The position numbers and the translations under genes are program-made. Positions 9,556-40,765 of a DNA stretch of 41,424 bases are shown here, in pieces (the first letter of the stretch is position 1; the number at the start of each line of letters is the position of its first letter). Location: positions 326,239 to 367,662 of the forward strand of contig NZ_RCDA01000002.1 of the NCBI RefSeq assembly GCF_003664325.1. Direction: 5' to 3'. Origin of the DNA: Alkalispirillum mobile (GTDB lineage Bacteria > Pseudomonadota > Gammaproteobacteria > Nitrococcales > Halorhodospiraceae). The notes under the pieces are model-generated. The model saw nothing but the letters and a program-made list of their open reading frames with translations. It ran no database searches and was not told the DNA's origin.

Positions 9556-10095
9556 ATGACCAGGTTGCGGCGGCTGAAGGAACTGCGGGGGCGTATTATT
9601 CCTATCACTTTTCCGGGGGCGAACAATCACGCCGGGCGTCGTCGCGCGTTCCATGCCTGGGGCATGCCGTGCTGGCTCGCTGCCGTGTTCCTCCTGGTCG
9701 GCTTGGCGGGCGTGCCCGCCGCCGGGGCCGATGATGACGCGGTCTACCTGGTGGCCCACCCTGATGTCTCCACCCGGTCACTCAACCGCGATAACAGCCG
9801 GGCCATGTTCGCCATGCGCCAGCGCAACTGGCCCGACGGTGCCAGCGCACGCGTCTACGTACTGCCGGACAGCCACCCGGTGCACGCCCGCTTCACCAAG
9901 GAACGACTGCGCGTCTTCCCCCATCAACTGCGGCTCTCCTGGGACCGGGCGGTGTTCTCTGGCACCGGACAGGCACCCCGCGAGGTGGGCTCGCTCTCGG
10001 AGATGCGCGAGCGGGTGGCCACCACCCCGGGGGCGATGGGCTATCTGACAAAGGAGTACCTGGATGAACGGGTGCAGGTTATCGATGTCCGCTAA
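9556..10095 (+). CDS. Small secreted PstS-like (phosphate-binding-protein-like) protein
   Basis: A 179-residue protein resembling the short periplasmic PBP-like proteins found next to porins in phosphate clusters. Seen: a long N-terminus, a hydrophobic export segment (residues 37-58, MPCWLAAVFLLVGLAGVPAAGA), then a domain with VYLVAHPDV, IFAMRQRNWPDG-like and GAMGYLTKEYLD phrases. These match the second-half strand and GxIGYL element of PstS-type proteins. The start is uncertain: ATG 9556 adds an arginine-rich stretch (GRRRAF, faintly Tat-like), while ATG 9664 gives a compact Sec signal but no good ribosome site. It overlaps the porin gene by 11 bases. It is too short to be a full two-lobed binding protein. 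Confidence 0.75.
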   Translation: MTRLRRLKELRGRIIPITFPGANNHAGRRRAFHAWGMPCWLAAVFLLVGLAGVPAAGADDDAVYLVAHPDVSTRSLNRDNSRAMFAMRQRNWPDGASARVYVLPDSHPVHARFTKERLRVFPHQLRLSWDRAVFSGTGQAPREVGSLSEMRERVATTPGAMGYLTKEYLDERVQVIDVR

Positions 10096-11296
10096 GGCGC
10101 AGGGCGTCCGGCTGGGCACGGTGCTTGCCGTCCTGTGCGGGGCGGTGGTGCCGGGCCTGGCGGCAGCCGATGACCGGGTGCTGGATACGCTGCAGCTTCA
10201 CGGCTTCCTCAGCCAGGGCTGGGTCACTACCGACCACAACAACTTTTTCGGGCCCAGCAGTGATGGCAGTGGCAGCTTCCAGTACACGGAGATCGGTGCC
10301 AACGCCTCCCTGCGCCCCCACGAGGACCTGCTGTTCTCGGCGCAGGTGCTCAGCCGGCGCGCCGGCGGGGACGGGCGGGATGCCCGCCCAAAGCTGGACC
10401 ACGGCGTGGTGGACTACCAATTGGTCTCCACCCCGGGCCGGACCCTGGGGGTCCAGGCCGGCCGGTTCAAGAACCCCTTCGGGCTGTACAACCAGACCCG
10501 GGACGTGCCCTTCGCCCGCCCGGGCATCCTGTTACCGCAATCCATTTACTTCGACCGCGCCCGCTCGCTGGCCATGGCGGCGGATGGCGGCTCGGTGTAC
10601 TGGGAGGAACGGCTGCCGGGCGGTGGTAACCTGCGGGCCCAGATCGGGGCCGGGCGCGCCCAGGCCGACGACGACCTGGAAGTCACGCTGGGGCTGGACC
10701 AGGTCGATGGTTCCATCGAACCGCGCGATTCCGTCATCGGCCAGTTGCGCTACGAGCACGACGGGGGCCGTGTCGTGGCAGCCCTCAGCGCGGCCCGCGT
10801 CAAGGCACGGTACGAGCGCAGCGGGGCGAGCGACGGCGATTTCGAATTCCGCCCCTGGATACTCTCCCTGCAGTACAACCAGCCGGAGTGGAGCCTGACC
10901 GGCGAGTTCGCCCTGCGCGAATCCAGCATGGAGGGGCTCGGTGAGCTGGGGGCGGACTTCGACATCACCGGCGAGAGCTGGTACCTCCAGTACAACCGCC
11001 GTTTCATGGACAACTGGGAGTGGCTTATTCGCTACGACAGCCTGGTCACTGATCGCAGCGACCGTTCCGGCCGGGATTTCTCGGCGGGCACTAACGGGCA
11101 GATACCGGCACATGCCCGCTACGCCCACGACTGGACCCTCGGCCTGCGCTGGCAGCCCCATCCCAAGGTCCTGCTGGGGGCCGAGTACCACCACGTGGAC
11201 GGGACCGGCTGGCTCCCTGGCGAGGACAACCCCGATCCGGCTGACACCAGCCGGCGCTGGAACATGCTGCTGCTGCAGATGTCCCTGCGGTACTGA
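10085..11296 (+). CDS. Outer-membrane porin-like beta-barrel protein
   Basis: A 403-residue exported protein from ATG 10085 (MSAKAQGVRLGTVLAVLCG), with a signal peptide ending near AAADD. The body shows alternating hydrophobic/polar strands and aromatic girdle residues (ALRESS, WYLQYNRRF, LLGAEYHHVDG) and ends in LLLQMSLRY, the terminal aromatic expected for barrel assembly. Phrases such as GFLSQGWVTTDHNNFFGPSSDG and GRFKNPFGLYNQTRDVPFARPG are typical of porins encoded beside small PBP-like proteins. It overlaps the preceding gene by 11 bases, so the two are translationally linked. Anion or phosphate selectivity is inferred from the phosphate neighbours only. Confidence 0.82.
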   Translation: MSAKAQGVRLGTVLAVLCGAVVPGLAAADDRVLDTLQLHGFLSQGWVTTDHNNFFGPSSDGSGSFQYTEIGANASLRPHEDLLFSAQVLSRRAGGDGRDARPKLDHGVVDYQLVSTPGRTLGVQAGRFKNPFGLYNQTRDVPFARPGILLPQSIYFDRARSLAMAADGGSVYWEERLPGGGNLRAQIGAGRAQADDDLEVTLGLDQVDGSIEPRDSVIGQLRYEHDGGRVVAALSAARVKARYERSGASDGDFEFRPWILSLQYNQPEWSLTGEFALRESSMEGLGELGADFDITGESWYLQYNRRFMDNWEWLIRYDSLVTDRSDRSGRDFSAGTNGQIPAHARYAHDWTLGLRWQPHPKVLLGAEYHHVDGTGWLPGEDNPDPADTSRRWNMLLLQMSLRY

Positions 11297-14293: not shown

Positions 14294-15253
14294 ATGTGGA
14301 AGAAGAACTGCTGCATCGCCGGCCTGGCCGGAACCGTATTTGCCGTCGGTGCTGCCGGTGCCGGTGAGGTGGACCCGAACCTGCCGAACTACGAGCCGGT
14401 TTCGGGTATCTCGGGCAACCTCTCCAGCCAGGGCTCCGACACCCTGAACAATTTGATGACCCTCTGGGCCGAGACCTTCAACGAGTACTACCCGAACGTC
14501 TCCATCGAGATCGAGGGCGCGGGCTCGGGCACCGCCCCGGTGGCCCTGACGGAAGGCACCGCCAACTTTGGTCCCATGAGCCGCAGCATGCGCGACTCCG
14601 AGATCGAATCGTTCGAGAACACCCACGGCTACGAGCCGAGTCTGGCGCGCGTGGCCATCGACGTGCTGGCCGTCTACGTGAACCGCGACAACCCCATTGA
14701 GGGCCTGACCATCGAGCAGGTGGACGGTATCTTCTCCGAGACCCAGCGCTGCGGCGGTGAGAACATCACCCGCTGGGGCGAGGTGGGCCTGGAAGGGGAG
14801 TGGGCCAATCGCGACTTCACGCTCTACAGCCGTAACGCCGTCTCCGGCACCTACGGCTACTTCCGCGAGCACGCCCTCTGCGACGGTGACTTCAAGGACA
14901 CCATCAACGAGCAGCCCGGTTCCGCCTCAGTGGTGCAGGGCGTCAGCGAGTCGCTGAACGGTATCGGCTACTCCGGCATCGGCTATCTGACCTCCGGCGT
15001 GCGGGCCATCAAGCTGGGCCACGACGGCCTCTACGAGCCCAATGCCGAGAACGCGCTGAGCGGCGACTACCCGCTGGCCCGGTTCCTGTACGTCTACGTC
15101 AACAAGAACCCCAACGAGGACCTGCCTCCGGTGGAGCGCGAGTTCCTGCGCATGATCTACACCCAGGAGGGTCAGGACGTGACCGTGCGCGACGGCTTCA
15201 TCCCGCTGCCGGCCTCCGCGGCCGAGCGTGAGAAGGAGCGCCTGGGCCTGTAA
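14294..15253 (+). CDS. pstS: Phosphate ABC transporter substrate-binding protein PstS
   Basis: Periplasmic phosphate-binding protein of 319 residues. Seen: export signal (MWKKNCCIAGLAGTVFAVGAAGAG), the first phosphate-binding loop SSQGSDTLNNL, the second-loop phrase GAGSGTAPVALTEGTANFGPMSR, the RNAVSGTYGYFRE loop and the late GIGYSGIGYL element. Acidic residues are frequent, as in halophile or alkaliphile secreted proteins. ATG 14294 follows GGAGTGACG. It sits alone behind strong Pho boxes and is followed by a terminator; pstC, pstA and pstB are not in the window and must lie elsewhere. Two cysteines near residues 156 and 197 could form a disulfide, which is not diagnostic. Confidence 0.95.
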   Translation: MWKKNCCIAGLAGTVFAVGAAGAGEVDPNLPNYEPVSGISGNLSSQGSDTLNNLMTLWAETFNEYYPNVSIEIEGAGSGTAPVALTEGTANFGPMSRSMRDSEIESFENTHGYEPSLARVAIDVLAVYVNRDNPIEGLTIEQVDGIFSETQRCGGENITRWGEVGLEGEWANRDFTLYSRNAVSGTYGYFREHALCDGDFKDTINEQPGSASVVQGVSESLNGIGYSGIGYLTSGVRAIKLGHDGLYEPNAENALSGDYPLARFLYVYVNKNPNEDLPPVEREFLRMIYTQEGQDVTVRDGFIPLPASAAEREKERLGL

Positions 15254-15280: not shown

Positions 15281-15340
15281 GGGCCAGGGATTGGCCCGGT
15301 AGAAAGGGGCGACACTCGGGAGAGTGGCGCCCCTTTCGTT
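15281..15340 (+). terminator. Rho-independent terminator after pstS
   Basis: A strong hairpin with arms 15303-15316 and 15323-15336 (14 bp with one mismatch, six-base loop) is followed by CGTTATT. A smaller hairpin, GGGCCA (15281-15286) with TGGCCC (15292-15297), lies just upstream. It separates the phosphate block from the arsenic operon. Confidence 0.88.
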
Positions 15341-15369
15341 ATTGGCGGCCGACCAATCTGCCTATATGC

Positions 15370-15398
15370 TTGTCCATATATACGGCAAGGCGTATATT
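15370..15398 (+). promoter_or_regulatory. ars promoter with ArsR-type palindromic operator
   Basis: The inverted repeat ATATACG (15378-15384) and CGTATAT (15391-15397), with a six-base spacer, looks like an ArsR/SmtB operator. A possible promoter encloses it: -35 TTGTCC (15370-15375), 17-base spacer, -10 TATATT (15393-15398). Binding there would block RNA polymerase. Transcription would then start at about the arsR ATG (15405). Confidence 0.6.
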
Positions 15399-15404
15399 GT
15401 GCCC

Positions 15405-15743
15405 ATGGACATCGCCCCCGAAAAGCTCTTCCGCCTGCTGGCGGACACCACGCGGCTGCAGAGCGTCATCCTGCTCCAGGCCGAAGGGCGTCTCTGCGTC
15501 TGCGAGCTCACCCACGCCCTGGAACTGTCCCAGCCCAAGATCTCCCGCCACCTGGCGCAACTGCGCGACGCCGGTGTGGTGGTGGACGAGCGGCGGGGGC
15601 AGTGGGTGCACTACCGGCTGGCGGACGATTTGCCGGACTGGGTGCACCGGGTTGTCGAGGCCGCTGCCGGCGCCGCCGGCGTGCCCTGGCAGGCCGCCCA
15701 CCAGCGGCTTTGCTGCATGCCCAACCGCCCACCCCTGAACTGA
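15405..15743 (+). CDS. arsR: ArsR-family arsenic-responsive repressor
   Basis: A 112-residue winged-helix metalloregulator that represses the ars operon until arsenite binds. Seen: MDIAPEKLFRLLADTTRLQ, the metal-site helix RLCVCELTHAL with Cys31 and Cys33, the recognition helix LSQPKISRHLAQLRDAGVV, and the wing RRGQWVHYRL. The third cysteine of E. coli ArsR (CVCDLC) is Thr here, but a CC pair stands near the C-terminus (RLCCMPN), so the arsenite site may be built differently. ATG 15405 has no ribosome site; if the promoter at 15370-15398 is right the mRNA is leaderless. Alternative ATG 15366 also lacks a ribosome site and would lie across the operator. Confidence 0.9.
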   Translation: MDIAPEKLFRLLADTTRLQSVILLQAEGRLCVCELTHALELSQPKISRHLAQLRDAGVVVDERRGQWVHYRLADDLPDWVHRVVEAAAGAAGVPWQAAHQRLCCMPNRPPLN

Positions 15744-15770: not shown

Positions 15771-16193
15771 ATGACTGAACACAAGGCCGTGCTCTTTCTC
15801 TGCACCGGCAACTCCTGCCGCTCGCAAATGGCCGAGGGCTACGCCCGGGCCCTGGGCGGCGACCGCGTAACGGTGTTGTCCGCCGGCATCGAGGCCCACG
15901 GCAAGAACCCGCGCGCCATCGCCGTTATGGCCGAGGATGGCGTGGACATCTCCGGGCAGGCATCCACCCGGCTCACCGACGACATGCTGGCCCGTGCCGA
16001 TGTACTGGTCACCGTCTGCGGTCACGCCGACGAGCACTGCCCGGTGGTGCCGGGCGGCCTCGAAAAACACCACTGGCCGCTCCCGGACCCGGCCAAGGTC
16101 CGGGGCCGTGAGGAAGAAATCATGGCCGAGTTCCGCGCCGTGCGGGATGACATCAAGCGACGGGTCGCCGATCTGGTTGACACCCTCAAATGA
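15771..16193 (+). CDS. arsC: Arsenate reductase, thioredoxin-coupled (LMW phosphatase fold)
   Basis: Reduces arsenate to arsenite for extrusion. The 140-residue protein has the P-loop CTGNSCRSQMAE with catalytic Cys11 and Arg17, and the redox pair Cys83 and Cys90 in VTVCGHADEHC, which is the thioredoxin-dependent, Bacillus/Staphylococcus pI258-type ArsC rather than the glutaredoxin type. DPAKVRG-like residues follow, with the general-acid aspartate in WPLPDP. It lies 27 bases after arsR in the same operon. Length is typical. Confidence 0.95.
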   Translation: MTEHKAVLFLCTGNSCRSQMAEGYARALGGDRVTVLSAGIEAHGKNPRAIAVMAEDGVDISGQASTRLTDDMLARADVLVTVCGHADEHCPVVPGGLEKHHWPLPDPAKVRGREEEIMAEFRAVRDDIKRRVADLVDTLK

Positions 16194-16269: not shown

Positions 16270-16650
16270 ATGACCGAACTGACCGTTTTCGACCCGCCGC
16301 AATGCTGTTCCACCGGTGTCTGCGGCCCCAGCGTCGACCCCAAGCTCTCGAAGCTGGCTGCCGACCTGGACTGGCTGAAGAAGCAGGGGGTGGCGGTGAC
16401 CCGATACAACCTCTCCCAGCAGCCCGGCGCCTTCGTCGAAAACGCCACCATCAAGGGCATCCTGGAGCGCCGGGGCGAAGACGCCCTGCCGGTCTTCCTG
16501 GTGGATGGCGAGGTGATGAGCCAGGGCAGCTACCCGGACCGCGAGGCGCTGGCCGGCTGGGTGGGTGTCAAGGCGCAATCCAGCGAAACGGAGTCCGGCG
16601 GCTGCTGCGGCGCTGACGCCGAGAAGCAGCAGGGCAGCGGGTGCTGCTAG
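16270..16650 (+). CDS. arsD: ArsD arsenic metallochaperone
   Basis: Delivers arsenite to the ArsA ATPase and acts as a weak co-regulator. The 126-residue protein has the metal-binding N-terminus VFDPPQCCSTGVCGP with Cys12, Cys13 and Cys18, and the C-terminal vicinal pairs Cys112-113 and Cys125-126, matching the canonical ArsD cysteine pattern. The start at ATG 16270 has AGAGG about 10 bases upstream; a longer frame reaching back to 15937 overlaps arsC and is not real. It precedes arsA, as in most arsDA-containing operons. Confidence 0.95.
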   Translation: MTELTVFDPPQCCSTGVCGPSVDPKLSKLAADLDWLKKQGVAVTRYNLSQQPGAFVENATIKGILERRGEDALPVFLVDGEVMSQGSYPDREALAGWVGVKAQSSETESGGCCGADAEKQQGSGCC

Positions 16651-16738: not shown

Positions 16739-18454
16739 ATGGACTTTCTCGAAAATACCACCCGAAACCTCTTCTTCACCGGAAAGGGCGGAGTCGGCAA
16801 GACCTCGCTGGCCTGTGCCAGCGCCCTGGCCCTGGCGGAGCAGGGCAAGCGGGTGCTGCTGGTCTCCACCGACCCGGCCTCCAACATCGACGAGGTGCTG
16901 GAGACCGATCTGGGGGATACCCCGCGCCCGGTCCCGAGCGTGGATAACCTGCACGCGCTGAACATCGACCCGGAGAAGGCCGCCGAGGCCTACCGGGAGC
17001 GGGTGGTCGGCCCCTACCGGGGGCAACTCCCCGAGGCCATTGTCCGCAGCATGGAAGAGCAGCTCTCCGGGGCCTGCACCGTGGAGATCGCCGCCTTCGA
17101 CGCCTTTGCCGGCCTGCTGGGCGATCCCCGTGCCGCCGAGGGCTACGACCACCTGGTCTTCGACACCGCACCCACCGGCCACACCCTGCGGCTGCTCTCC
17201 CTGCCCAGCGCCTGGACCGGTTACATCGAGACCAACACCTCCGGTACCTCCTGTCTCGGCCCGCTGGAAGGACTGTCGGCCCAGAAGGGTGTTTACGCCG
17301 GTGCGGTCGCAGCCCTGGCCGACGGTGCACGCACCACGCTGGTCCTGGTCAGTCGCCCGGAAACCGCCGCCCTGGAAGACGCGGCCCGTTCCTGCACGGA
17401 GTTGCGTGCGCTCGGGGTCGGCAATCAGCACCTGGTCGTCAACGGGGTCTTCCGGGCCAGCGATGACCGCGATCCGGTGGCCCGCGCTCTGGAAGCCCGG
17501 GGCCAGCGGGCACTGGCTGCCATGCCTGCCGCGCTCGTTGAACTGCCGCGTAGCGAGCGTCCCCTGCGTGCCCGGGCACCCATGGGGCTCGCCGGTTTGC
17601 GCGTCCTGCTTGGCACCGAGGACGCCCCCGCGCCGCAGCCGGCGGGTATTGCCACCCCCGAGGGCGAGACCTTCGAGCGGCTGGTCGACAGTCTGGAGCG
17701 CGACGGCCGCGGTGCGGTCATGACCCTGGGCAAGGGCGGTGTCGGCAAGACCACCCTGGCGGCCCGCATCGCCGTGGCCCTGGCCGCGCGCGGTCACTAT
17801 GTGCACCTGACCACCACCGACCCGGCCGCCCACGTGGAGGCAGCGGTGGGGGGCGAACTGCCCACCGGATTGACCATCGGCCGGGTGGACCCCCAGGCGG
17901 AGACCGAGCGCTACCGGGCCCACGTCATGGCCACCGCCGGCGCCGACATGGACGAGGAGGGCCGCAAGCTGCTCGAGGAGGACCTGCGCTCCCCCTGCAC
18001 GGAGGAGATCGCCGTCTTCCAGGCCTTTGCCCGTACCGTGGCCCGGGCCGAGGACGAGATTGTGGTGCTGGACACCGCCCCCACCGGCCACACCATCCTG
18101 CTGCTGGACGCCGCCCAGGCCTACCACCGGGAGCTGGGCCGGCAGAGCCAGGGCGTGGCGCCCGAGGTGGAGCACCTGCTGCCCCGCCTGCGCGACCCGC
18201 ACTACACCCACATGCTGATCTGCACCCTGCCGGAGGCCACCCCGGTGCACGAGGCGGCCGCCCTGCAGGCGGACCTGCGCCGGGCCGGCATCGAACCGGC
18301 GGCCTGGATCGCCAACCAGGCGCTCACGCCGCTGACCGTCACCGATCCGGTACTGCGGGCGCGGCAGGCGCAGGAGGCGCGTTACCTGCGGGAGATCCTG
18401 GCCGAGCACCACAGCCGACTGATCATCGAACCCTGGAGTGAGGACTACTCATGA
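16739..18454 (+). CDS. arsA: Arsenite efflux pump ATPase ArsA
   Basis: A 571-residue ATPase energising arsenite extrusion. Two homologous halves are seen: A1 P-loop GKGGVGKT (15-22) and A2 P-loop GKGGVGKT (about 331-338), each followed by a DTAPTGHT signature (near 142 and 445). The arsenite-binding cysteines Cys113 (SGACTVEI), Cys172 (TSCLGPL) and Cys420 (SPCTEE) fall at the E. coli positions 113, 172 and 422. ArsA normally docks on the membrane pump; here the next gene is acr3, which overlaps its stop codon by four bases, implying translational coupling of ATPase and pump. Confidence 0.97.
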   Translation: MDFLENTTRNLFFTGKGGVGKTSLACASALALAEQGKRVLLVSTDPASNIDEVLETDLGDTPRPVPSVDNLHALNIDPEKAAEAYRERVVGPYRGQLPEAIVRSMEEQLSGACTVEIAAFDAFAGLLGDPRAAEGYDHLVFDTAPTGHTLRLLSLPSAWTGYIETNTSGTSCLGPLEGLSAQKGVYAGAVAALADGARTTLVLVSRPETAALEDAARSCTELRALGVGNQHLVVNGVFRASDDRDPVARALEARGQRALAAMPAALVELPRSERPLRARAPMGLAGLRVLLGTEDAPAPQPAGIATPEGETFERLVDSLERDGRGAVMTLGKGGVGKTTLAARIAVALAARGHYVHLTTTDPAAHVEAAVGGELPTGLTIGRVDPQAETERYRAHVMATAGADMDEEGRKLLEEDLRSPCTEEIAVFQAFARTVARAEDEIVVLDTAPTGHTILLLDAAQAYHRELGRQSQGVAPEVEHLLPRLRDPHYTHMLICTLPEATPVHEAAALQADLRRAGIEPAAWIANQALTPLTVTDPVLRARQAQEARYLREILAEHHSRLIIEPWSEDYS

Positions 18455-19566
18455 GCGATACGCAGCCCACTGCTGCCGACAACGCCCCCTCCACCAAGGA
18501 GGGCATGGGCCTGTTTGAGCGCTACCTGAGCATCTGGGTGGCGTTGGGCATGATCGCCGGCGTGCTCCTCGGGCAGTTCCTGCCCGTGGTGCCGGATACC
18601 CTGGCGCAGTTCGAGTACGCCCAGGTCTCCATCCCGGTGGCCATCCTCATCTGGGCCATGATCTACCCGATGATGGTGCAGATCGACTTCACCTCCATCA
18701 TGGGGGTGCGCCGGCAGCCGAAGGGGCTGGTGATCACTACCACGGTGAATTGGCTGATCAAGCCCTTCACCATGTTCGCCATTGCCTGGTTCTTCCTGAT
18801 GGTGGTCTTCCAACCCTTCATCCCCGAGGATTTGGCCCGGGAGTACCTGGCCGGGGCCATCCTGCTGGGCGCGGCGCCCTGCACGGCGATGGTCTTCGTC
18901 TGGAGCTACCTGACCCGGGGCGATGCCGCCTACACCCTGGTGCAGGTGTCGGTGAACGACCTCATCATGCTCTTTGCCTTCGCCCCCATCGTGGTGCTGC
19001 TGCTGGGGATCTCGGACATTCAGGTGCCGTGGGATACCGTGGCGCTGTCGGTGTTCCTGTACATCGTCATCCCGCTCGCGGCGGGTTACCTCACCCGGGT
19101 GCTGCTCATCAAGCACAAGGGCGTGGAGTGGTTCGACAACGTCTTCATGAAGCGCCTGGCACCGGTGACCCCCATCGGGCTGATCCTCACCCTTATCCTG
19201 CTGTTCGCATTCCAGGGCGAGGTCATCCTGAACAACCCGCTGCACATCCTGCTGATCGCCATCCCGCTGATCATTCAGACCTTCCTGATCTTCTTCATCG
19301 CCTATCGTTGGGCGAAGGCGTGGCGGGTGCAGCACTCGGTGGCCGCGCCCGGGGCCATGATCGGTGCCAGCAACTTCTTTGAACTGGCGGTGGCCGCCGC
19401 CATTGCCCTGTTCGGCCTGCAATCGGGTGCAGCGCTGGCCACCGTGGTGGGGGTGCTGGTGGAGGTGCCGCTGATGCTGGCACTGGTGCGGATCGCCAAC
19501 CGGACGAAACACTGGTTCCCGGAGGAGACCCAGCCGGGGCTGGCGCCGGTGGCGGGTAAGGGATGA
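18451..19566 (+). CDS. acr3: Arsenite permease of the ACR3 family
   Basis: A 371-residue inner-membrane carrier exporting arsenite. About ten hydrophobic segments are visible. The essential cysteine of the family is present in GAAPCTAMVFVWSYL (Cys144), and the later MIGASNFFELAVAAAIALF region is also characteristic. This is an ACR3 protein, not the ArsB type. It begins inside the arsA stop (ATGA overlap) and its own stop overlaps the start of the next small gene in the same way, so arsA, acr3 and the CC-motif gene form a tightly coupled unit. Confidence 0.95.
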   Translation: MSDTQPTAADNAPSTKEGMGLFERYLSIWVALGMIAGVLLGQFLPVVPDTLAQFEYAQVSIPVAILIWAMIYPMMVQIDFTSIMGVRRQPKGLVITTTVNWLIKPFTMFAIAWFFLMVVFQPFIPEDLAREYLAGAILLGAAPCTAMVFVWSYLTRGDAAYTLVQVSVNDLIMLFAFAPIVVLLLGISDIQVPWDTVALSVFLYIVIPLAAGYLTRVLLIKHKGVEWFDNVFMKRLAPVTPIGLILTLILLFAFQGEVILNNPLHILLIAIPLIIQTFLIFFIAYRWAKAWRVQHSVAAPGAMIGASNFFELAVAAAIALFGLQSGAALATVVGVLVEVPLMLALVRIANRTKHWFPEETQPGLAPVAGKG

Positions 19567-19883
19567 CCACCGTGACCCTCACCCCGGCCGCCCGGGACTG
19601 GGTGCAGCGCCACGGTGGGGCGCTGACCCTGCGCGCCTCGCCCCAGCACGGCTGTTGTGGCGGGCACGCCGCCGTGCCCATGGCCGAGGCCCGGGTGCCA
19701 GAGGCGCGGGAGGACTACGCGGTCCTGGTGGTGGAGGGCGTGACCGTCTACCTCGCCAACGCGCTCTCTGAAGGCCCTTACCAGGTGGACCTGGAGGGGA
19801 TCTGGCGCTGGAAACGGCTGGTGGTGGAGGGGGCCGTCAGCCCCTGGCGGCCCGCGTCGCCGGGCACAACCGACAGGCAGTGA
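19563..19883 (+). CDS. Small CC-motif protein at the end of the ars operon
   Basis: A 106-residue cytoplasmic protein of unproven function. The one striking motif is HGCCGGHAAVP, a vicinal Cys31-Cys32 with glycines. It resembles what I recall as the CC/Se-motif family, in which one cysteine can be selenocysteine; here both codons are ordinary TGT. The C-terminal half (EGVTVYLANAL, DLEGIWRWKRLVVEG) looks like a small alpha/beta fold. It starts in a four-base ATGA overlap with acr3. A vicinal thiol pair translated with the arsenite pump suggests thiol redox or arsenite binding, but this is inference. Confidence 0.8.
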   Translation: MTTVTLTPAARDWVQRHGGALTLRASPQHGCCGGHAAVPMAEARVPEAREDYAVLVVEGVTVYLANALSEGPYQVDLEGIWRWKRLVVEGAVSPWRPASPGTTDRQ

Positions 19884-19913: not shown

Positions 19914-20759
19914 ATGCTTAAGCACATTCTGGCCGCTATCGACTTCTCACCGGCCTGGCCGCAGCTGGCAGCCCAACTGGCTCGCCTGCCGGCCCTGGGC
20001 TGCCAGCGCGTCACCCTGGCCTACGTGATCGCCGAGGCGTATACCCGGGCGCCGGAGGTCAGGCATCGGGCGTACTACGAAGAGAAACTGGCGGGAATCG
20101 CCACCCAGCTCAAGCAGGACACTGGCCTGGAGGTGGACTGGACCGTGCGGGTCGGCCCGGTGGCCCGCGAGCTGGTTGCGGCAGCGGCAGAGCAGGGGGC
20201 GGGTGCCCTCCTGGCGGGCAGCCAGGGGCACGGTGTTATCCGGGAACTGTTACTCGGCAGCACGGTGCTGGACCTGGCGCGGCTGGCGGACCGTCCACTG
20301 CTGCTGGCGCCCATCAACGGCGAGGAGGCCAAACCGTTGGACGACATCTGCCGGCCCCTGCTGGCCACCGACGGCTCCGAAGCCGCTGCCGGTGCCGAGG
20401 CCGTTTTCCTGCGTTTTCTGCCCCAATGCGCGGGGGGCATGGTGGTTTCGGTGGGCCCCTGGCTCGAGTGCCCCGGGCCGGGCGACTCCCGGGCCTGCAT
20501 TGAAGGTCATATCCAGCGCCTGCGGGAGCGTGCCGGTCCACCCGATGCATTCGCCGTGGAACTGCTGGAAGAAGGTCGGCCGAGCGCAGAGATTGTCCGG
20601 ACGGCCGAGGCGCGCGGGGCGGACCTGATCATTCTCGGCCGGCGGGGCCACAACCGGATGACGGAACTGCTGCTCGGCAGTACCGCCGAGGCTGTCTGCC
20701 GGGCGAGCCACCGGCTGGTGCTGCTGGTGCCCGCCCAGAGCGCCCATTCCGGCGCCTAA
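19914..20759 (+). CDS. Universal stress protein, tandem UspA domains
   Basis: A 281-residue protein with two Usp domains (about 1-140 and 142-281). Each carries an ATP-binding G-2x-G-9x-G(S/T) motif: GSQGHGVIRELLLGST and GRRGHNRMTELLLGST, so both are probably nucleotide-binding UspA/UspFG-type domains. A good GGAGAAAGG site precedes ATG 19914, 30 bases after the CC-motif gene, so cotranscription with the ars operon is likely. Its role with arsenic is unknown. The stop codon overlaps that of the convergent ygjV-like gene by bases 20756-20759. Confidence 0.9.
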   Translation: MLKHILAAIDFSPAWPQLAAQLARLPALGCQRVTLAYVIAEAYTRAPEVRHRAYYEEKLAGIATQLKQDTGLEVDWTVRVGPVARELVAAAAEQGAGALLAGSQGHGVIRELLLGSTVLDLARLADRPLLLAPINGEEAKPLDDICRPLLATDGSEAAAGAEAVFLRFLPQCAGGMVVSVGPWLECPGPGDSRACIEGHIQRLRERAGPPDAFAVELLEEGRPSAEIVRTAEARGADLIILGRRGHNRMTELLLGSTAEAVCRASHRLVLLVPAQSAHSGA

Positions 20760-21283: not shown

Positions 21284-21378
21284 GGTGTTGTCAGAGCCGT
21301 CTGCGCCGAGTGAGTGGCAACGCGACCGGGCGCGGTGTCCTGGCCCCTATCTTGACTCTCCAAGTCATTAATTCAACC

Positions 21379-21464
21379 GTCGTTGCGAGCACAGCGAAGC
21401 AATCCATTCGGTCCGGCAATGCACCGGTCATGGATTGCTTCGTCGCGTTGCTCCTCGCAATGAC
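21379..21464. repeat. Palindromic dispersed repeat (GTCATTGCGAGG-type)
   Basis: Inverted repeat with a perfect 13-bp inner stem, CGAAGCAATCCAT (21395-21407) and its complement (21430-21442), and imperfect outer arms GTCGTTGCGAG and CTCGCAATGAC. The wording (TTGCGAG..GCGAAGCAATCC) is that of a repeat seen intergenically in many unrelated bacterial genomes. Loop 22 bases. No coding capacity. Confidence 0.75.
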
Positions 21465-21486
21465 TGGGTGCTCTGCGCCTCCTTAG

Positions 21487-27436: not shown

Positions 27437-28924
27437 TCACCGCTCGGCCTGCAGCTCCGACAACACCCCCCGGAAGCTCTCCAGCCCGGCCTCCAGGTTC
27501 TCGATGATCTCCTCGGCGATCTCGTCCGGCTCGGGCAGGTTGTCCAGGTCGCCCAGGGATTGGTCCCGCAGCCAGAAGATATCCAGGCTGGTCTTGTCGC
27601 GCTTGAAGATCTCCTCGCGGCTGTAGCACCGCCAGCGGCCGTCCGGGTTGTCCTCGCTCCAGGTGGCCTGGCGCTGGTGGCGTGCCCCCGGTTTATAGCA
27701 CTCGATGAACTCGCGCAGGTGCTCGTCGCGCAGCGGCTTCTTCTTGAGGGTGTGGTGGATGTTGGTGCGGTAGTCGTAGAACCAGACCGCGTCCGTCCAC
27801 GGCTCCGCACGCCCGGGGCGGCCGTCGAAGAACAGCACATTGGCCTTGACCCCGTGGGCGTAGAAGATGCCAGTGGGCAGGCGCAGGATGGTGTGCAACT
27901 CGGTGGTCTCCATCAGCTTGCGCCGCACCGTCTCGCCGGCGCCGCCCTCGAACAGCACATTGTCCGGCACCACCACCGCCGCCTGACCGTGCTCCTTCAG
28001 CAGCGTGCGAATGTGCTGGACGAAGTTGAGCTGCTTGTTCGAGGTGGTGGCCCAGAAATCCTGGCGGTTGTACTCGAACTCCTCCCGCGCCTGCTCACCG
28101 GCCTCGTTGGTGATGGTCAGCGTGCTCTTCTTGCCGAAGGGCGGGTTGGCCAACACGTAATCGTGTTTTCTCGGCTGCTCGGCCAGTAGCGCGTCGGTGG
28201 GGGAGATGGTGGGTTCATCGCCAATATCGCCGATGTTGTGCAGAAAGAGGTTCATCAGACACATGCGGCGGGCGCTGGGCACGATCTCGTTGCCGTAGAA
28301 CGTATGGTGCTTGAGCGCCTGCTTCTGCTCGGCGGTCATCTCGGCCATGTGGTGCGCCTTGATGTAATCGTACGCCGCCAGAAAGAAGCCGCCCGTGCCG
28401 CAGGCCGGGTCACAGATGGTCTTCTCGGGCTGTGGCTGCACGCACTCCACCATGGCGCGGATCAGCGGGCGGGGCGTGAAGTACTGGCCGGCGCCCGACT
28501 TGGTGTCCTGGGCGTTGCGCTCCAGCAGGCCCTCGTACATATCGCCCTTGACCTCGGCATCGAGCATCACCCAGGTCTCGTCGTCGATGAGCTGGATCAG
28601 CCGCGCCAGCTTGGCCGGGTCCTGAATCTTGTTCTGGGCCTTGGTGAAAATCTGGCCCAGCATGCCGCGCGCCTGGCCCAGCTCGCGCAGCAGCTCAATG
28701 TAGTGCCCCTCCAGCTCCGCGCCCTTGCGGGCCTTCAGGCTCTGCCAGTTGTAGGCCTCGGGGATGCCCACATCCCGGCCCCAGGGCGGCCGGCTGTATT
28801 CGTCGGCCATCTTGAGGAAGATGAGGTAAGTGATCTGCTCCAGGTAGTCGCCATAGCTCACGCCGTCGTCGCGCAGCATGTGGCAGAAGTTCCAGACCCT
28901 GGAGACGAGGTTTTCGGCGTTCAT
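27437..28924 (-). CDS. hsdM: Type I restriction-modification methyltransferase subunit HsdM
   Basis: A 495-residue N6-adenine methyltransferase of a type I system. N-terminal HsdM helical domain (VWNFCHMLRDDGVSYGDYLEQITYL), SAM-binding motif DPACGTGGFF (172-181), a GNEI phrase, and catalytic NPPF (260-263). The C-terminus (about 430-495) carries helices that contact HsdS. It starts at ATG 28924, overlapping the preceding AlbA_2 gene stop by four bases. It is the last gene of the hsdR-hsdS-AlbA_2-hsdM operon. Fragments of a second copy lie at 26582-26691. Confidence 0.97.
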   Translation of the reverse strand: MNAENLVSRVWNFCHMLRDDGVSYGDYLEQITYLIFLKMADEYSRPPWGRDVGIPEAYNWQSLKARKGAELEGHYIELLRELGQARGMLGQIFTKAQNKIQDPAKLARLIQLIDDETWVMLDAEVKGDMYEGLLERNAQDTKSGAGQYFTPRPLIRAMVECVQPQPEKTICDPACGTGGFFLAAYDYIKAHHMAEMTAEQKQALKHHTFYGNEIVPSARRMCLMNLFLHNIGDIGDEPTISPTDALLAEQPRKHDYVLANPPFGKKSTLTITNEAGEQAREEFEYNRQDFWATTSNKQLNFVQHIRTLLKEHGQAAVVVPDNVLFEGGAGETVRRKLMETTELHTILRLPTGIFYAHGVKANVLFFDGRPGRAEPWTDAVWFYDYRTNIHHTLKKKPLRDEHLREFIECYKPGARHQRQATWSEDNPDGRWRCYSREEIFKRDKTSLDIFWLRDQSLGDLDNLPEPDEIAEEIIENLEAGLESFRGVLSELQAER

Positions 28925-30843
28925 TCTTGCTCCTCGATGGCGATATAGGCCTGATCTGGGCGGTTCGGCTCATCTGGGTACTGTCGCTGTAACCGACCCT
29001 TGCGTACCAATGGCGTGAGGTATCGGTGTTGGAGATAGGCGGGGTTGCGCCCCGTCGCTGTCGCTAGCTCACGTAACGACCAGGGGCGCAGGGCGCAAAG
29101 GGCCAATATGGCGGCTTCAAGTCGTTCAGAGCCGCGGGTCCTCTGGCCCAGCGCCTCAATCTGGTGGCGCAAAGATTCTGGGAGCGCTCCGAGTAGAGAC
29201 TCCCTAGATAAGCCTTCGGACTCCCTAGATAAGCCTTCGGACTCCCTAGATAAGCCTTCGGACTCCCTAGATAAGCCTTCGGACTCCCTAGATAAGCCTT
29301 CCGGCGACTCGGAAAAGTTAGCCAACAGCTCATCCTCAGCCTGGTCTGCTGGAATACCCAGTCGAGCGTCCGGCACATAGTAGGTCGCCGGTCCACGCGG
29401 CACCTGCTCGACTAGCTCCAGGTCCCGCAAACGGGCCAATCGCTGACTGGCGGTCAGGGTATCGACCCGGTTCAGGTCGCGGTAATCGGAGTTGGTGATT
29501 CGGCCGGTCTCCCGAACGAAGATCAGCGCCCGCTGCTCGTCCTCGCCCAGCCCCAGATGCCGGAACTGGCCGAGCCAAGCGACATCCTCCTCGGTCAGGA
29601 AGTGGTGGAACAGGTAGGTAGCAGAAAACTGGTCATTGTGGCGGTCGGAATCGAAACTGGGCGGCGAAAGCCCCGCTTCCTCCATCAGCCGGCGCATGAC
29701 GCGGATACCGCTGCCTTTGGTTTCAGCCAACCCCATCTCGTGCAACACCGAAGCGATGACCGGGTTGCGCCACTGCGAACCCGGCTCGCCCAGATTCTCC
29801 AGCGCCTTCAGGGAGTACCCCGGGTTCTGCACTTCAAGTCGATTACTGTAACGCAGCAACTGAACGGGCTGCTGGCGCTGATAGTTGCGGTGCATGACGG
29901 CGTTCACCACGGCCTCGCGCACCACCTTGTCTGGCAGCACCGTCTTTTCGTCCCGGCGTATCTCCCCTTCAGGTAGCTGGAAGGCACGGGGCAGGTCGTC
30001 CAGCACCGCGGCCGTCGCCCGCTGAATCAGCCGGGGTAGGGTGTCGCGCAGATCCAGCGTGGTGAAGCGCTCGTGTGGGTCTTCAATCCACTCCTTGCCG
30101 GGAATGCGCACATAGTCCACCCGGTTGGCCGGGAAAAGACGGCGCAAAGCGCCCCGCCGACCGAACAGCAACACCCCTGCCACCGTGGGCTGCAGGTTGC
30201 CGGCATTTCGAACGACAGCACCCAGCGATTCCAGCAATTCATCGTCGGAAAAGTTCAGCTCCTCCGCCGCCGGGTTTACGGCGCGGCGCGCGTTGCGATA
30301 GTGCTCGATGGCGTCCGGGTCGAGATCATCCAGACTGGCCCCGGTCACCACTGAGGCATCGTAACTCTGGCCAGATCGCCCCTGATACAGCGCCGCGAGA
30401 TCGTCCTGATTGCAACGGTAATCGCCACTGGGGCCACGCCGCCAGGCCGAGCGGGGCAGGGGCTTGTTCGCAAAGCAGATAGGCCGGGAGGCCGGATCGG
30501 CTTCCGCCACTTCTACCAGGATTACCGTGCCTTCACTCAGCGCCTCAGCCCGCGCCTGAATGCGCAGGGGCACGTTGAAGGCATTGGCACAGCGGGAGTG
30601 CAGGTCGTTGAGCAGCTTGTCCGGGTCCGCTATGCCGGTTACGCGATAGTCACCGGGCGTATCCGTGGCCTTTTCCACGCCCAGCAACAGCCAGCCGCCG
30701 CCCAGCCCCGGCTCGTTAGCGAAGGCGCAGACCGTTTCCAGCAGGGACTCACCGATGGCCGAGGCCCGCTTGGCTTCGATCCGATCCGACTCGTCGAGTT
30801 GTCGGAGTTGATCGAGGAGTTCCTGTGCCGTCACCTGGCTCAT
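28921..30843 (-). CDS. AlbA_2/Schlafen-like putative DNA-binding ATPase in the restriction operon
   Basis: A 640-residue protein of the AlbA_2 plus HATPase_c_4 architecture, often labelled putative transcriptional regulator or RecG-related. Seen: N-terminal AlbA_2 region (EAKRASAIGESLLETVCAFANEPGLGG, about 20-130), a central region with AGVLLFGRR, then HATPase_c_4 (VVREAVVNAVMHRNY, ETKGSGIRVMRRLMEEAGL, about 300-400), winged-helix-like segments, and five tandem EGLSRES units (about 514-548). It overlaps hsdS upstream and hsdM downstream by four bases each, so it is translated as part of the restriction operon. Its role (regulator or defence effector) is unproven. Confidence 0.85.
   Translation of the reverse strand: MSQVTAQELLDQLRQLDESDRIEAKRASAIGESLLETVCAFANEPGLGGGWLLLGVEKATDTPGDYRVTGIADPDKLLNDLHSRCANAFNVPLRIQARAEALSEGTVILVEVAEADPASRPICFANKPLPRSAWRRGPSGDYRCNQDDLAALYQGRSGQSYDASVVTGASLDDLDPDAIEHYRNARRAVNPAAEELNFSDDELLESLGAVVRNAGNLQPTVAGVLLFGRRGALRRLFPANRVDYVRIPGKEWIEDPHERFTTLDLRDTLPRLIQRATAAVLDDLPRAFQLPEGEIRRDEKTVLPDKVVREAVVNAVMHRNYQRQQPVQLLRYSNRLEVQNPGYSLKALENLGEPGSQWRNPVIASVLHEMGLAETKGSGIRVMRRLMEEAGLSPPSFDSDRHNDQFSATYLFHHFLTEEDVAWLGQFRHLGLGEDEQRALIFVRETGRITNSDYRDLNRVDTLTASQRLARLRDLELVEQVPRGPATYYVPDARLGIPADQAEDELLANFSESPEGLSRESEGLSRESEGLSRESEGLSRESEGLSRESLLGALPESLRHQIEALGQRTRGSERLEAAILALCALRPWSLRELATATGRNPAYLQHRYLTPLVRKGRLQRQYPDEPNRPDQAYIAIEEQE
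29199..29302 (-). repeat. Five tandem 21-bp repeats inside the AlbA_2 gene
   Basis: Units start at 29199, 29220, 29241, 29262 and 29283 (plus-strand unit ACTCCCTAGATAAGCCTTCGG), essentially identical except at the last edge. Each encodes EGLSRES. The length is a multiple of three, so copy number changes keep the frame. Identity at silent sites implies recent expansion. Confidence 0.95.
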
Positions 30844-32450
30844 GCGGGCGTCCTTGCCTTGCGTGTGCGGCGCTTGATTTTGGGGGCATCGGCCTGTTCC
30901 TGGCGGATGCGCTCCAGCAGGGCGCTGGCGGGCTCGTCGTTGGGGTCCTGGGGGACGAGGTTGCCTTCGAAGGCGCGTTTTAGGATGGACTGGCGCAAAT
31001 ATTCGATTTTCTCTATTGAAGATAGGATCAGATGCTCTAAATGCTCGATCTTTGATAACTCTTCATCGAGCACCTGCCCAATCTCAGCTTGCTCTTCCGC
31101 GCTGCAAACAGGAATAATAAATTCCCTGATTTGTGACTCGCTAATATGCGGTAGCTGAGTTCCTGTCTGGTTGCCTAGACAGTGCACAGCAAATCTCTTC
31201 TGTGATAGGGCTCCAGTCAAGAATCTCATGTCTACTGAAGTGCTTTTCCTGAACCTAGCGACCCGTTGAACCAGTAAGCATGGGGAATCTTCTGGGCGTA
31301 CTACCGCCAGTTTCAAACCGGAAGAAATTATGGGTCTATCCATGGCTAAGACAACATCACCTTCATGTACTAATAAACTCTCATAGCCGCTAAGTCTTTT
31401 CTCTGGCCAGTATTTTGCATTATCCCAACGGAGTCTCCCGGGTGCGATGTTATCACCTCGAAGAAGCCGCACGCCTGACTCTGAAAAACTAGAGCTCTTG
31501 AAAGCATAGCCGACGTCCGTATGTATCAATGTACCTAAACGAAGATACTTCCATTCATAAGGTATATGAGGTAAGTTGCGAATATCTTCATTACTTATAT
31601 TAGGCAGTTTCTTTGGCAGTCTTGGCTTCCTCGGCTTCTTTCCTGACTTGCCATTCACCTCCCATTCCGCGACTGCGGCCCTCCACTCTCCTAGCTGCTG
31701 CTGGTAGCAGGCTTCGCGTTCTTCGCGGATGCGCTCAAGGAGTTGGTCGGCGGTTTCGAGTTTGTCGGCGTTGTCTCGGCGCCATTGTTCGGTGAGGCGG
31801 CCTTCGAAGGCGGCCTTGAGCAGGGACTGGCGGTAGGTCTTGAGCTGGGCGCGGGCGGTTTTCAGGCTTTCCACGCCCTTGTCCAGTTCGGAGAAGAGTT
31901 CTTCGATCTTGGCGACGATGCGGCGTTGTTCTGCAAGAGGTGGTATTGGCAGTCGAATCGCCCTAATGCGTTCCTGGCCAATGTTCCGCATCGATTGCTG
32001 ATTGCCTGTGCTCAGCAGTTCGATTTGCCGCCGGCCTGCTACGGATCGTAAGTAGAAAAGGACGAACTTTGGTGAAACCCAAGTAAACGTCAGTCGTAGG
32101 ATCTTGTCGCTTAGCATCACATTGCGGCTGACTGCTTTTGCAATCACGCAAGCGCCGACAAGATCGATTGTATTTGATCGGCTAAATAGAAAGTCCCCTT
32201 CTTGGATAAATAAATTGTTCTGAACTCGGCTAGGATCTAGACAAGTTTTGCTCTCACTTTCTTGGTACTCTCCCCACGTTACGGCGCTAACTTTGGCTAC
32301 ACCAATCTCGCCTTCTTCTGGAGGCCGTTCAAGGCACTTGAAACTTTTTCCAGCTTCTATGGCGCTGATTACCTGGCCAAGCACGGCCACTTCCCATGTT
32401 TTTGGCCATTGGGAAACACATTCTGGTGGTTGAGATCCAGAAGTAGCCAT
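30840..32450 (-). CDS. hsdS: Type I restriction specificity subunit HsdS
   Basis: A 536-residue specificity subunit with two target recognition domains (about 15-170 and 290-440). Each is followed by a conserved helical spacer, PPLAEQRRIVAKIEELFSELDKG and SAEEQAEIGQVLDEELSKIE. The TRDs are visibly AT-rich compared with the spacers and flanking hsd genes, which indicates exchange of the DNA-recognition parts. A long linker (about 205-285, KSGKKPRKPRLPKKLP) follows the first spacer. ATG 32450 shares a base with the hsdR stop (TGATG). Recognition sequence cannot be predicted by eye. Confidence 0.95.
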   Translation of the reverse strand: MATSGSQPPECVSQWPKTWEVAVLGQVISAIEAGKSFKCLERPPEEGEIGVAKVSAVTWGEYQESESKTCLDPSRVQNNLFIQEGDFLFSRSNTIDLVGACVIAKAVSRNVMLSDKILRLTFTWVSPKFVLFYLRSVAGRRQIELLSTGNQQSMRNIGQERIRAIRLPIPPLAEQRRIVAKIEELFSELDKGVESLKTARAQLKTYRQSLLKAAFEGRLTEQWRRDNADKLETADQLLERIREEREACYQQQLGEWRAAVAEWEVNGKSGKKPRKPRLPKKLPNISNEDIRNLPHIPYEWKYLRLGTLIHTDVGYAFKSSSFSESGVRLLRGDNIAPGRLRWDNAKYWPEKRLSGYESLLVHEGDVVLAMDRPIISSGLKLAVVRPEDSPCLLVQRVARFRKSTSVDMRFLTGALSQKRFAVHCLGNQTGTQLPHISESQIREFIIPVCSAEEQAEIGQVLDEELSKIEHLEHLILSSIEKIEYLRQSILKRAFEGNLVPQDPNDEPASALLERIRQEQADAPKIKRRTRKARTPA

Positions 32451-39629: not shown

Positions 39630-40667
39630 TCAGAGAATTTCAGAGAGCTTTTTGCACAGGAATTCACTTCGGAAAATTCGTCTGCTCGTATCAGTAGTCG
39701 CGCGACGAGAATAGTCTATGAATTTTTGATAATCTTGACTTTCGTCATCTTCGTCATATCGAGAGCTTATCTCATCTAGACGAACTCTAGTCTTCTTGAT
39801 GTTTTTAATAATGTCTACTCTGGGAGCATGTTCTAGTCCCTCAACACCGGAAATGCAGTGAGCCACTGCACAAAACAGTGAATAAAATAGATGTATTCTG
39901 CTGAAGTTAGTATTCTTTAGTTCGGAGGCCGGATAAATCTCACCAATGACACTCATGGTTTTGTGAAAAAGGTCCTGAATTTTGTCTAAGTCTCCCTCTT
40001 CATCCTCAAACTTTTTGTAAAAGGTAGAAATATTCTTGTTGGTTTGAACTCCATCGGCCAGTGCAACCAAAAGGTCAGAGGCTAAAGTTGCCTCTGCCAT
40101 CCTTGATACCTGAGCTTTGGTCAAAATTCCTGAATCAACCCAATAGCCAACATACTCATAGCCTAAACTATATGCGGTTTGCTTGAAAAAACCTAGATAC
40201 TTAGCATTAAGTTGCTCTTGATTGTTCAGCCTTACTGAGTACGTGTTAAGTCGAGCAAAAATATCTAGTATGTCTGGATAAGTCGCATCAAATAGCAAGT
40301 CGACCCCGATTTCATACTTAAGGATCTCATGCTGCAAGCCCTCGTTTAAAGTCGAATATGTTTTCCCCGCAAATTCAGGGTTGTGCGCTTTTGAAATCTT
40401 GAACCCATCTTCCATGAACTCAAGTATTGCTCTTAACCTTTGCTGCCCATCAACAACAACACGAATGTTTCTGGTTCCTTTTAGCTCCTGGGTAATCAAA
40501 ACCTTTGGAATCGGCTTGCCTCGGACAATGGTGTCAATAAGATACGACTTGGCTTTCTCGCTCCAAACGGATCGTCTTTGAAATTCAGGCGATAAATCGA
40601 GCAGGCCAGACGACTCCCACTCAACGAAGTCAGATACGCTATAAACTCGTGTATCAAATTTTTTCAT
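39630..40667 (-). CDS. DUF262 (ParB/Srx-fold, GmrS-like) protein
   Basis: A 345-residue protein with an N-terminal DUF262 domain: LSPEFQRRSVWSEKAKSYLIDTI (about 26-47), the ParB-like IRVVVDGQQRLRAI with DGQQR at 73-77, and FARLNTYSVRLNNQEQLNAK. The C-terminal part is helical; there is no obvious DUF1524 HNH nuclease, which GmrSD-type proteins would carry. ATG 40667 has a strong AGGAG site; the longer ATG at 40709 falls inside an attC-like core. It precedes the HEPN gene by 11 bases. DUF262 proteins act in phage defence as NTPase/DNA-end sensors; here the HEPN may be the effector (inference). Confidence 0.85.
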   Translation of the reverse strand: MKKFDTRVYSVSDFVEWESSGLLDLSPEFQRRSVWSEKAKSYLIDTIVRGKPIPKVLITQELKGTRNIRVVVDGQQRLRAILEFMEDGFKISKAHNPEFAGKTYSTLNEGLQHEILKYEIGVDLLFDATYPDILDIFARLNTYSVRLNNQEQLNAKYLGFFKQTAYSLGYEYVGYWVDSGILTKAQVSRMAEATLASDLLVALADGVQTNKNISTFYKKFEDEEGDLDKIQDLFHKTMSVIGEIYPASELKNTNFSRIHLFYSLFCAVAHCISGVEGLEHAPRVDIIKNIKKTRVRLDEISSRYDEDDESQDYQKFIDYSRRATTDTSRRIFRSEFLCKKLSEIL

Positions 40668-40705
40668 TTCTTCTCCTGATGGTGAAATATAGCTGTCCAC
40701 CGGCT

Positions 40706-40765
40706 GCATAACATCTAAGCAGCGATCCGCCCGTGCGCAGCATGGCGGATAAATGTCTGTTGAAC
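40706..40765 (-). other. attC-like site 4 (upstream of DUF262 gene)
   Basis: 60 bp. Minus strand begins GTTCAAC (40765-40759), a perfect RYYYAAC core, and ends GTTATGC (40712-40706). Inner arms are a perfect 7-bp stem, ATCCGCC (40725-40731 on plus) with GGCGGAT (40744-40750), around a 12-base loop. AACA/TGTT pair at the ends. Size is at the low end for attC. Confidence 0.5.

Follow-up and report, generated by a model that had tools for sequence, protein, structure and literature searches.

The sixth gene of the ars operon of Alkalispirillum mobile encodes a small protein with a vicinal cysteine pair (the CC protein) that in all likelihood has an arsenic role. The protein is found beside the arsenite pump gene acr3 in soda-lake and salt-loving bacteria, its locus is restricted to one lineage of Acr3, and, judging from structure predictions, it very probably has an IscA-type fold. 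The chances are about even that it serves Acr3 as an accessory protein or chaperone that binds As(III). The window (the whole 41,424-nucleotide stretch that was analysed) holds the gene in the order arsR-arsC-arsD-arsA-acr3-CC-usp (Table 1). A sequence-only reading of the window had singled out an HGCCGGH motif, which occupies residues 29-35, and a four-base overlap with acr3. Both were confirmed in the sequence, where the CC gene opens with an ATG that shares the tetranucleotide ATGA with the acr3 stop codon. The arsA/acr3 junction is likewise a 4-base overlap (18451-18454). Directly upstream of arsR lies a gene for a PstS-family phosphate-binding protein (14294-15253, + strand; TIGR02136, 250 bits); PstS-like matches also occur in 14 of the 80 loci of the contig scan described below (the best 80 of 84 relatives), all 14 in Halomonadaceae.

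Table 1. Features of the ars operon in the window, with the basis for each assignment
Feature	Position	Strand	Basis
arsR, ArsR-family repressor	15324..15743	+	HTH_5, E 5e-13
arsC, thioredoxin-type arsenate reductase	15771..16193	+	TIGR02691, 178.1 bits (cut-off 174.3)
arsD, As(III) metallochaperone	16270..16650	+	NF033727, 128.5 bits (cut-off 90); PF06953, 159 bits
arsA, arsenical pump-driving ATPase	16739..18454	+	TIGR04291, 763.1 bits (cut-off 650)
acr3, arsenite efflux permease	18451..19566	+	TIGR00832, 407 bits (cut-off 282.8)
ATGA overlap of acr3 stop and CC start codons	19563..19566	+	sequence
CC protein, 106 aa, NF041239 member, predicted HesB/IscA-type fold	19563..19883	+	family match, models, profile comparison
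HGCCGG codons (residues 29-34), including Cys31-Cys32	19647..19664	+	sequence
universal stress protein (tandem), operon gene after CC	19914..20759	+	PF00582, E 5.2e-30, two stretches

The CC protein belongs to NCBIfam family NF041239, "CC/Se motif family (seleno)protein" (Moor_selen_rel), which it matches at 88.1 bits (cut-off 40, E = 3.1e-25) over residues 3-91, corresponding to positions 2-91 of the 91 in the profile. The earlier placement in a CC/Se-motif group is thus borne out above a curated cut-off. In searches up to E = 1, NF041239 was the only NCBIfam family returned, the HesB-like selenoprotein model TIGR01911 not being matched, and Pfam returned no family, PF01521 included. Nor did the protein match the ArsD models PF06953 and NF033727 or TIGR00412, the model of the MTH895/ArsE family. 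The suggestion that relatives may use selenocysteine was already in print: the accessible text of a 2026 review (PMC13188914) lists NF041239 among predicted selenoproteins as a "hypothetical protein predicted in Moorella thermoacetica" with the motif CxxU, so neither the family nor its selenocysteine forms are new. The review entry gives CxxU, whereas the members seen here have CC. UGA-containing versions, which the same reading had proposed to look for, did not turn up here: there is no in-frame stop in any of 44 NF041239 match rows (some genomes repeat), a sample that lies outside Bacillota, and the peptide pattern of the contig scan is by design blind to UGA at the motif. The title of the family names neither function nor fold, but the over-cut-off members examined here are tied to acr3. 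Among the matches listed, no paper links NF041239 to acr3 or to the fold of the A-type carriers, which is weak evidence of absence. The family assignment itself is therefore ordinary; what is informative, and added here to a catalogued (seleno)protein family without known function, is a predicted fold, the linkage to the pump with its context, and a concrete test.

The linkage to acr3 was measured in two ways. A contig scan with two peptides, one of them the pattern [SA][PT][RQ]HGCCGG, gave 84 relatives, of which the best 80 were kept. Many of them come from MAG contigs, and individual phylum labels may therefore be mistaken. Of these 80 loci, 79 contain acr3, and the sole exception (L095) is explained by a contig that begins inside the CC gene. 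No more than 100 bp separates acr3 from the CC gene in 54 of the 80, and no more than 1500 bp in 70; eight further loci have acr3 2.8-6.9 kb upstream, and in one (L065) it is on the opposite strand. Where acr3 lies within 60 bp, 18 of the 52 junctions allow a 4-bp ATGA/GTGA overlap with an open in-frame start. A usp gene follows within 300 bp of the CC gene in 31 of the same best 80 loci. In some Halomonadaceae the genes ahead of CC are those of a permease that scores 111.8 bits with the SaoE model (below its cut-off of 325) and of an ArsE-family thioredoxin, which passes its own cut-off of 62 at 87.8 bits. A tblastn search against plasmids returned one Halomonas record.

The scan pattern held HGCCGG, so that conservation of the motif in the 80-row alignment is partly built in, and for this we relied on the set found with the NF041239 HMM. 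Over its cut-off, the HMM found the family in 16 of 59 relatives (some genomes repeat across sets), 5 of 274 Gammaproteobacteria, 4 of 296 Actinomycetota, 4 of 111 Deinococcota, 3 of 200 Gemmatimonadota and 1 of 246 Planctomycetota, as well as in 6 of 6 genomes that were chosen because each holds a scan locus (two of these six, G061 and G064, correspond to scan loci L090 and L054 and stand outside the 32-member set used below). In the same sets acr3 exceeds its own cut-off in 100 of 274 Gammaproteobacteria, 85 of 296 Actinomycetota and 20 of 111 Deinococcota, and all 13 CC genomes of these three sets (5 + 4 + 4) are among the carriers. The family is thus rare next to acr3. An absence of arsenic genes around the homologues and a lack of conservation of the cysteines had been named as the findings that would tell against the sequence-only reading. 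Neither was seen: in the 32 over-cut-off HMM-found members examined (the window included, and many from the same genomes as the contig scan), acr3 is without exception the gene directly upstream (32 of 32), and 31 retain both cysteines; His29 is somewhat less constant, at 28 of 32. With the full-length family match, the short gaps to acr3 and the recurrent overlap junctions, the arrangement in the window is more than chance.

Both cysteines are also present in all 80 rows of the scan alignment, a count biased by the search pattern; this alignment omits L093, a near-copy of L092. In the same 80 rows Arg24 is invariant and no other cysteine is conserved, the fullest column outside the CC pair holding 6 of 80. 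A CC-family gene beside acr3 in genome G078 (L097, 1501-1767) reads HGCAGG and keeps Cys31 alone. Below the cut-off, at 23-38 bits, are five actinobacterial relatives, and no acr3 was found in the stretches of 6-15 kb read around them. Three of the five (L171, 5254-5628; L170, 395-826; L172, 7840-8394) have a single motif cysteine, in GCGG or GCGK, together with a cysteine near the C terminus, and possibly represent a separate uncharacterised family resembling the A-type carriers. The remaining pair carry CC in different contexts; one of the pair, with a TCCG motif (L161, 7592-7984), has neighbouring ORFs that by eye resemble CcdA, redoxin and MerP-like proteins, which may point to a further metal context of the family. 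The arsenic-linked GCCGG form thus looks like a distinct subgroup, as far as five outside rows from one phylum can define one.

Sequence searches of the PDB with the CC protein found nothing (best E 0.48 with phmmer and 0.41 with the 80-row profile), and the link to IscA is visible only by fold and profile-profile comparison. Both agree with our own inspection of the residues, which had suggested an A-type carrier. An AlphaFold2 model built from 80 rows (pLDDT 84) has one strand, one helix and six strands; a second, for which a Salinibacter member headed an alignment of 40 rows (pLDDT 91), has the same order with an additional short helix at 65-68. For both models the best Foldseek row was SufA (2d2a_A), with E-values of 2.4e-4 and 9.1e-5 and TM-scores to the query of 0.56 and 0.62, and IscA chains came next. 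VIA-align gave Z-scores of 9.2 (1r94_A, rmsd 2.9, 84 aligned) and 9.2 (2d2a_B, rmsd 2.7, 84 aligned), and of 8.6 and 8.5 for DsrR. The ten best VIA-align entries are IscA/SufA, DsrR and others that were deposited as, or that we take to be, of the Fe-S/HesB type. A Z near 8 can reflect a common arrangement, and it is the gap to the next rows, where Z drops to 3.9 and 2.3, that makes the fold call persuasive. Moreover, hhalign aligned the family with 25 PF01521 proteins of this and related genomes (25 of 38 PF01521 matches) at a probability of 88, an E of 3e-6 and a score of 37.5 over 64 columns covering the N-terminal two thirds; 100 column shuffles never scored above 21.8, and the reversed alignment scored 14.8. 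This alignment puts Cys32 on the first ligand cysteine of the A-type carriers.

The CC protein thus shares its predicted fold with the A-type carriers IscA and SufA (PF01521) and with DsrR. The A-type carriers match PF01521 and have three ligand cysteines (GCSG ... CGC), whereas the CC protein, which has no Pfam match, keeps the first position alone and adds an extra cysteine, Cys31. The C-terminal CGC ligands are absent, any cysteine in the last 25 residues being found in only 3 of 80 rows; for this reason the role of a canonical Fe-S carrier was set aside. The CC protein is, on the predicted fold, an A-type-carrier scaffold that fails that family's ligand test. This likeness and the tie to one Acr3 lineage are the points that the sequence-only reading missed.

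The Acr3 proteins linked to CC genes (defined as the best-scoring Acr3 in each CC locus, that of L065 being on the other strand, and some genomes entering twice) come from six phyla. Rows were left out for L095, which has none, for L046, L199, L262, L297 and L298, which are too short, and for L255-L258, which are repeats. A first tree of 144 rows (95 from CC loci and 49 from CC-less Gammaproteobacteria), a quick search without bootstrap that gave long-branch warnings for some CC-less rows, placed all CC-locus rows in a group of 102 with an SH-aLRT of 90; the group includes 7 CC-less rows, and the labels change 8 times, compared with a mean of 41 after shuffling. A second quick search, also without bootstrap, took its CC-less sample from Gammaproteobacteria, Actinomycetota and Deinococcota alone. 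It held 207 rows, with 48 CC-less Actinomycetota (the best-scoring loci, to which 20 lower-scoring ones were added) and 15 CC-less Deinococcota. The smallest group that contains all 95 CC-locus rows then has 104 members (SH-aLRT 97), the remainder being 7 gammaproteobacterial and 2 Deinococcota CC-less rows; the labels change 9 times, where shuffled labels average 68. Outside the group lie every one of the 48 CC-less Actinomycetota rows and 13 of the 15 from CC-less Deinococcota. Distances among CC proteins and among their Acr3 proteins are correlated as well (Mantel r = 0.73, n = 79, 0/2000 permutations). What the trees and the Mantel result establish is co-inheritance, which alone does not demonstrate function. 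Downstream of the seven gammaproteobacterial CC-less acr3 genes within the group (L273-L279), the rows that this reading covered, we saw no CC-like protein, and in one of them (L275) a usp ORF directly follows acr3. Together with the two CC-less Deinococcota rows (L254 and L259) these make nine members of the group without a CC protein, which, with the arrangement in L275, indicates that the CC protein is dispensable.

We propose that the CC protein derives from the A-type-carrier (IscA/SufA/HesB) fold, has become specific for arsenic and works with Acr3. Cys31 and Cys32, which are predicted to sit in the loop that joins strands two and three, would bind As(III) or an organoarsenical; the protein would hold cytosolic arsenite and then hand it over to Acr3, much as ArsD hands it to ArsA. 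Binding of As(III), contact with Acr3 and the direction of transfer are inferred. Given two adjacent loop cysteines, an invariant Arg24 and a usual His29, all beside an arsenite pump, binding and delivery of As(III) is the simplest reading. Matches to arsA and arsD occur in only 4 of the best 80 of 84 scan loci, so the constant partner is Acr3 and not ArsA, and service to ArsA was rejected on the same count of arsA matches. That the CC protein stays with Acr3 in several phyla, that arsA and arsD are scarce in its loci and that permease/ArsE variants occur in Halomonadaceae all point to the efflux step. ArsD (PF06953/NF033727) is similarly a small ars-operon protein with a vicinal cysteine pair, for which the role would be similar, but its partner is ArsA, whereas that of the CC protein appears to be Acr3, and the window has an arsD of its own besides. 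We know of no chaperone for Acr3. The accessible text of two papers describes ArsD as an As(III) chaperone that serves ArsA (PMC6620896, PMC6205960). In the portion of a 2015 survey of ars operons available to us, 484 of the classified transporters were ACR3 and 111 were ArsB (PMC4435449). Acr3 is thus a very common arsenite pump, and a small soluble protein tied to one of its lineages is a directly testable candidate.

Against delivery of As(III) by the CC protein stand the HGCAGG variant and the nine CC-less Acr3 proteins of the same group. We also count against it that E. coli became resistant to As(III) with acr3-2 of Halomonas GFAJ-1 and an arsH gene, on constructs that the accessible text describes without a CC-type gene (PMC5930303). 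The cysteines might instead do redox work, cycling between dithiol and disulphide or forming mixed disulphides, and so hold Acr3, ArsC or an arsenic-thiol adduct in the reduced state. The published selenocysteine forms suggest as much, the accessible part of the review expecting most uncharacterised selenoproteins to be redox proteins (PMC13188914), and an ArsE-family thioredoxin gene (TIGR00412) lies within 150 bp upstream of the CC gene in 6 of the best 80 of 84 scan loci. ArsE-family proteins are likewise small thiol proteins beside an arsenic-island permease, but they are thioredoxin-like, whereas the AlphaFold models of the CC protein are IscA-like and not thioredoxin-like. The protein lacks a CxxC, what stays beside it across phyla is the pump, and the A-type-carrier fold is a ligand-binding scaffold; selenocysteine, for its part, can also serve as a metal(loid) ligand. 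We therefore regard a redox function as unlikely.

The tight coupling to one Acr3 lineage and the overlap-type gene junctions would equally suit an accessory or regulatory subunit of this Acr3, active in assembly, gating or sensing, whose cysteines sense arsenite and do not deliver it. However, acr3 is more than 1500 bp away, on the other strand or not seen in 10 of the best 80 of 84 loci, and nine Acr3 proteins of the lineage manage without a CC protein, which makes such a subunit quite improbable. The chance is similarly small that the protein carries or repairs Fe-S clusters, protecting or restoring enzymes damaged by arsenite. The predicted fold, the profile similarity to IscA/SufA and the retained first ligand position speak for this function, but the two C-terminal cysteine ligands are missing and the genome of the window carries three other PF01521 proteins. 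A fuller form of the As(III)-delivery proposal, which we regard as possible but hold only tentatively, is that a dedicated As(III) carrier for Acr3 arose from the A-type Fe-S fold when a second cysteine was gained and the C-terminal ligands were lost, and that it travelled between phyla in company with one lineage of the pump. Such a carrier would do for Acr3 what ArsD does for ArsA, and selenocysteine in place of one cysteine in anaerobic relatives would tighten the binding of arsenic.

A published expression study may already include a CC protein. The accessible text on Thioalkalivibrio jannaschii ALM2 reports an ars cluster that is highly expressed at 5 mM As(III) and includes ACR3, "two hypothetical proteins" and uspA, beside an operon with a glycosyl transferase and a rhodanese-related protein (PMC6620896). 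The T. versutus scan locus (L017) has an arsR-like ORF, arsI (NF041414, 130 bits), acr3, the CC gene and usp, with adjoining ORFs that read as a glycosyltransferase and a rhodanese. With the same surroundings in both, the CC protein is probably one of the two hypothetical proteins of the ALM2 cluster.

Elsewhere in the window, two overlapping ORFs of 179 and 410 aa (9556-11296, + strand), without a Pfam match at E up to 1e-5, are flanked by genes for a PhoR-like kinase and a GGDEF-EAL protein. The intergenic stretch 21378-21465 holds an imperfect palindrome (TTGCGAGCACAGCGAAGCAATCC ... GGATTGCTTCGTCGCGTTGCTCCTCGCAA), seen by eye, that resembles a dispersed repeat element. Further downstream, on the - strand, are a type I restriction-modification cluster (HsdM, HsdS and HsdR; 27437-35242) and a gene for a GmrSD-type endonuclease (39630-40709).
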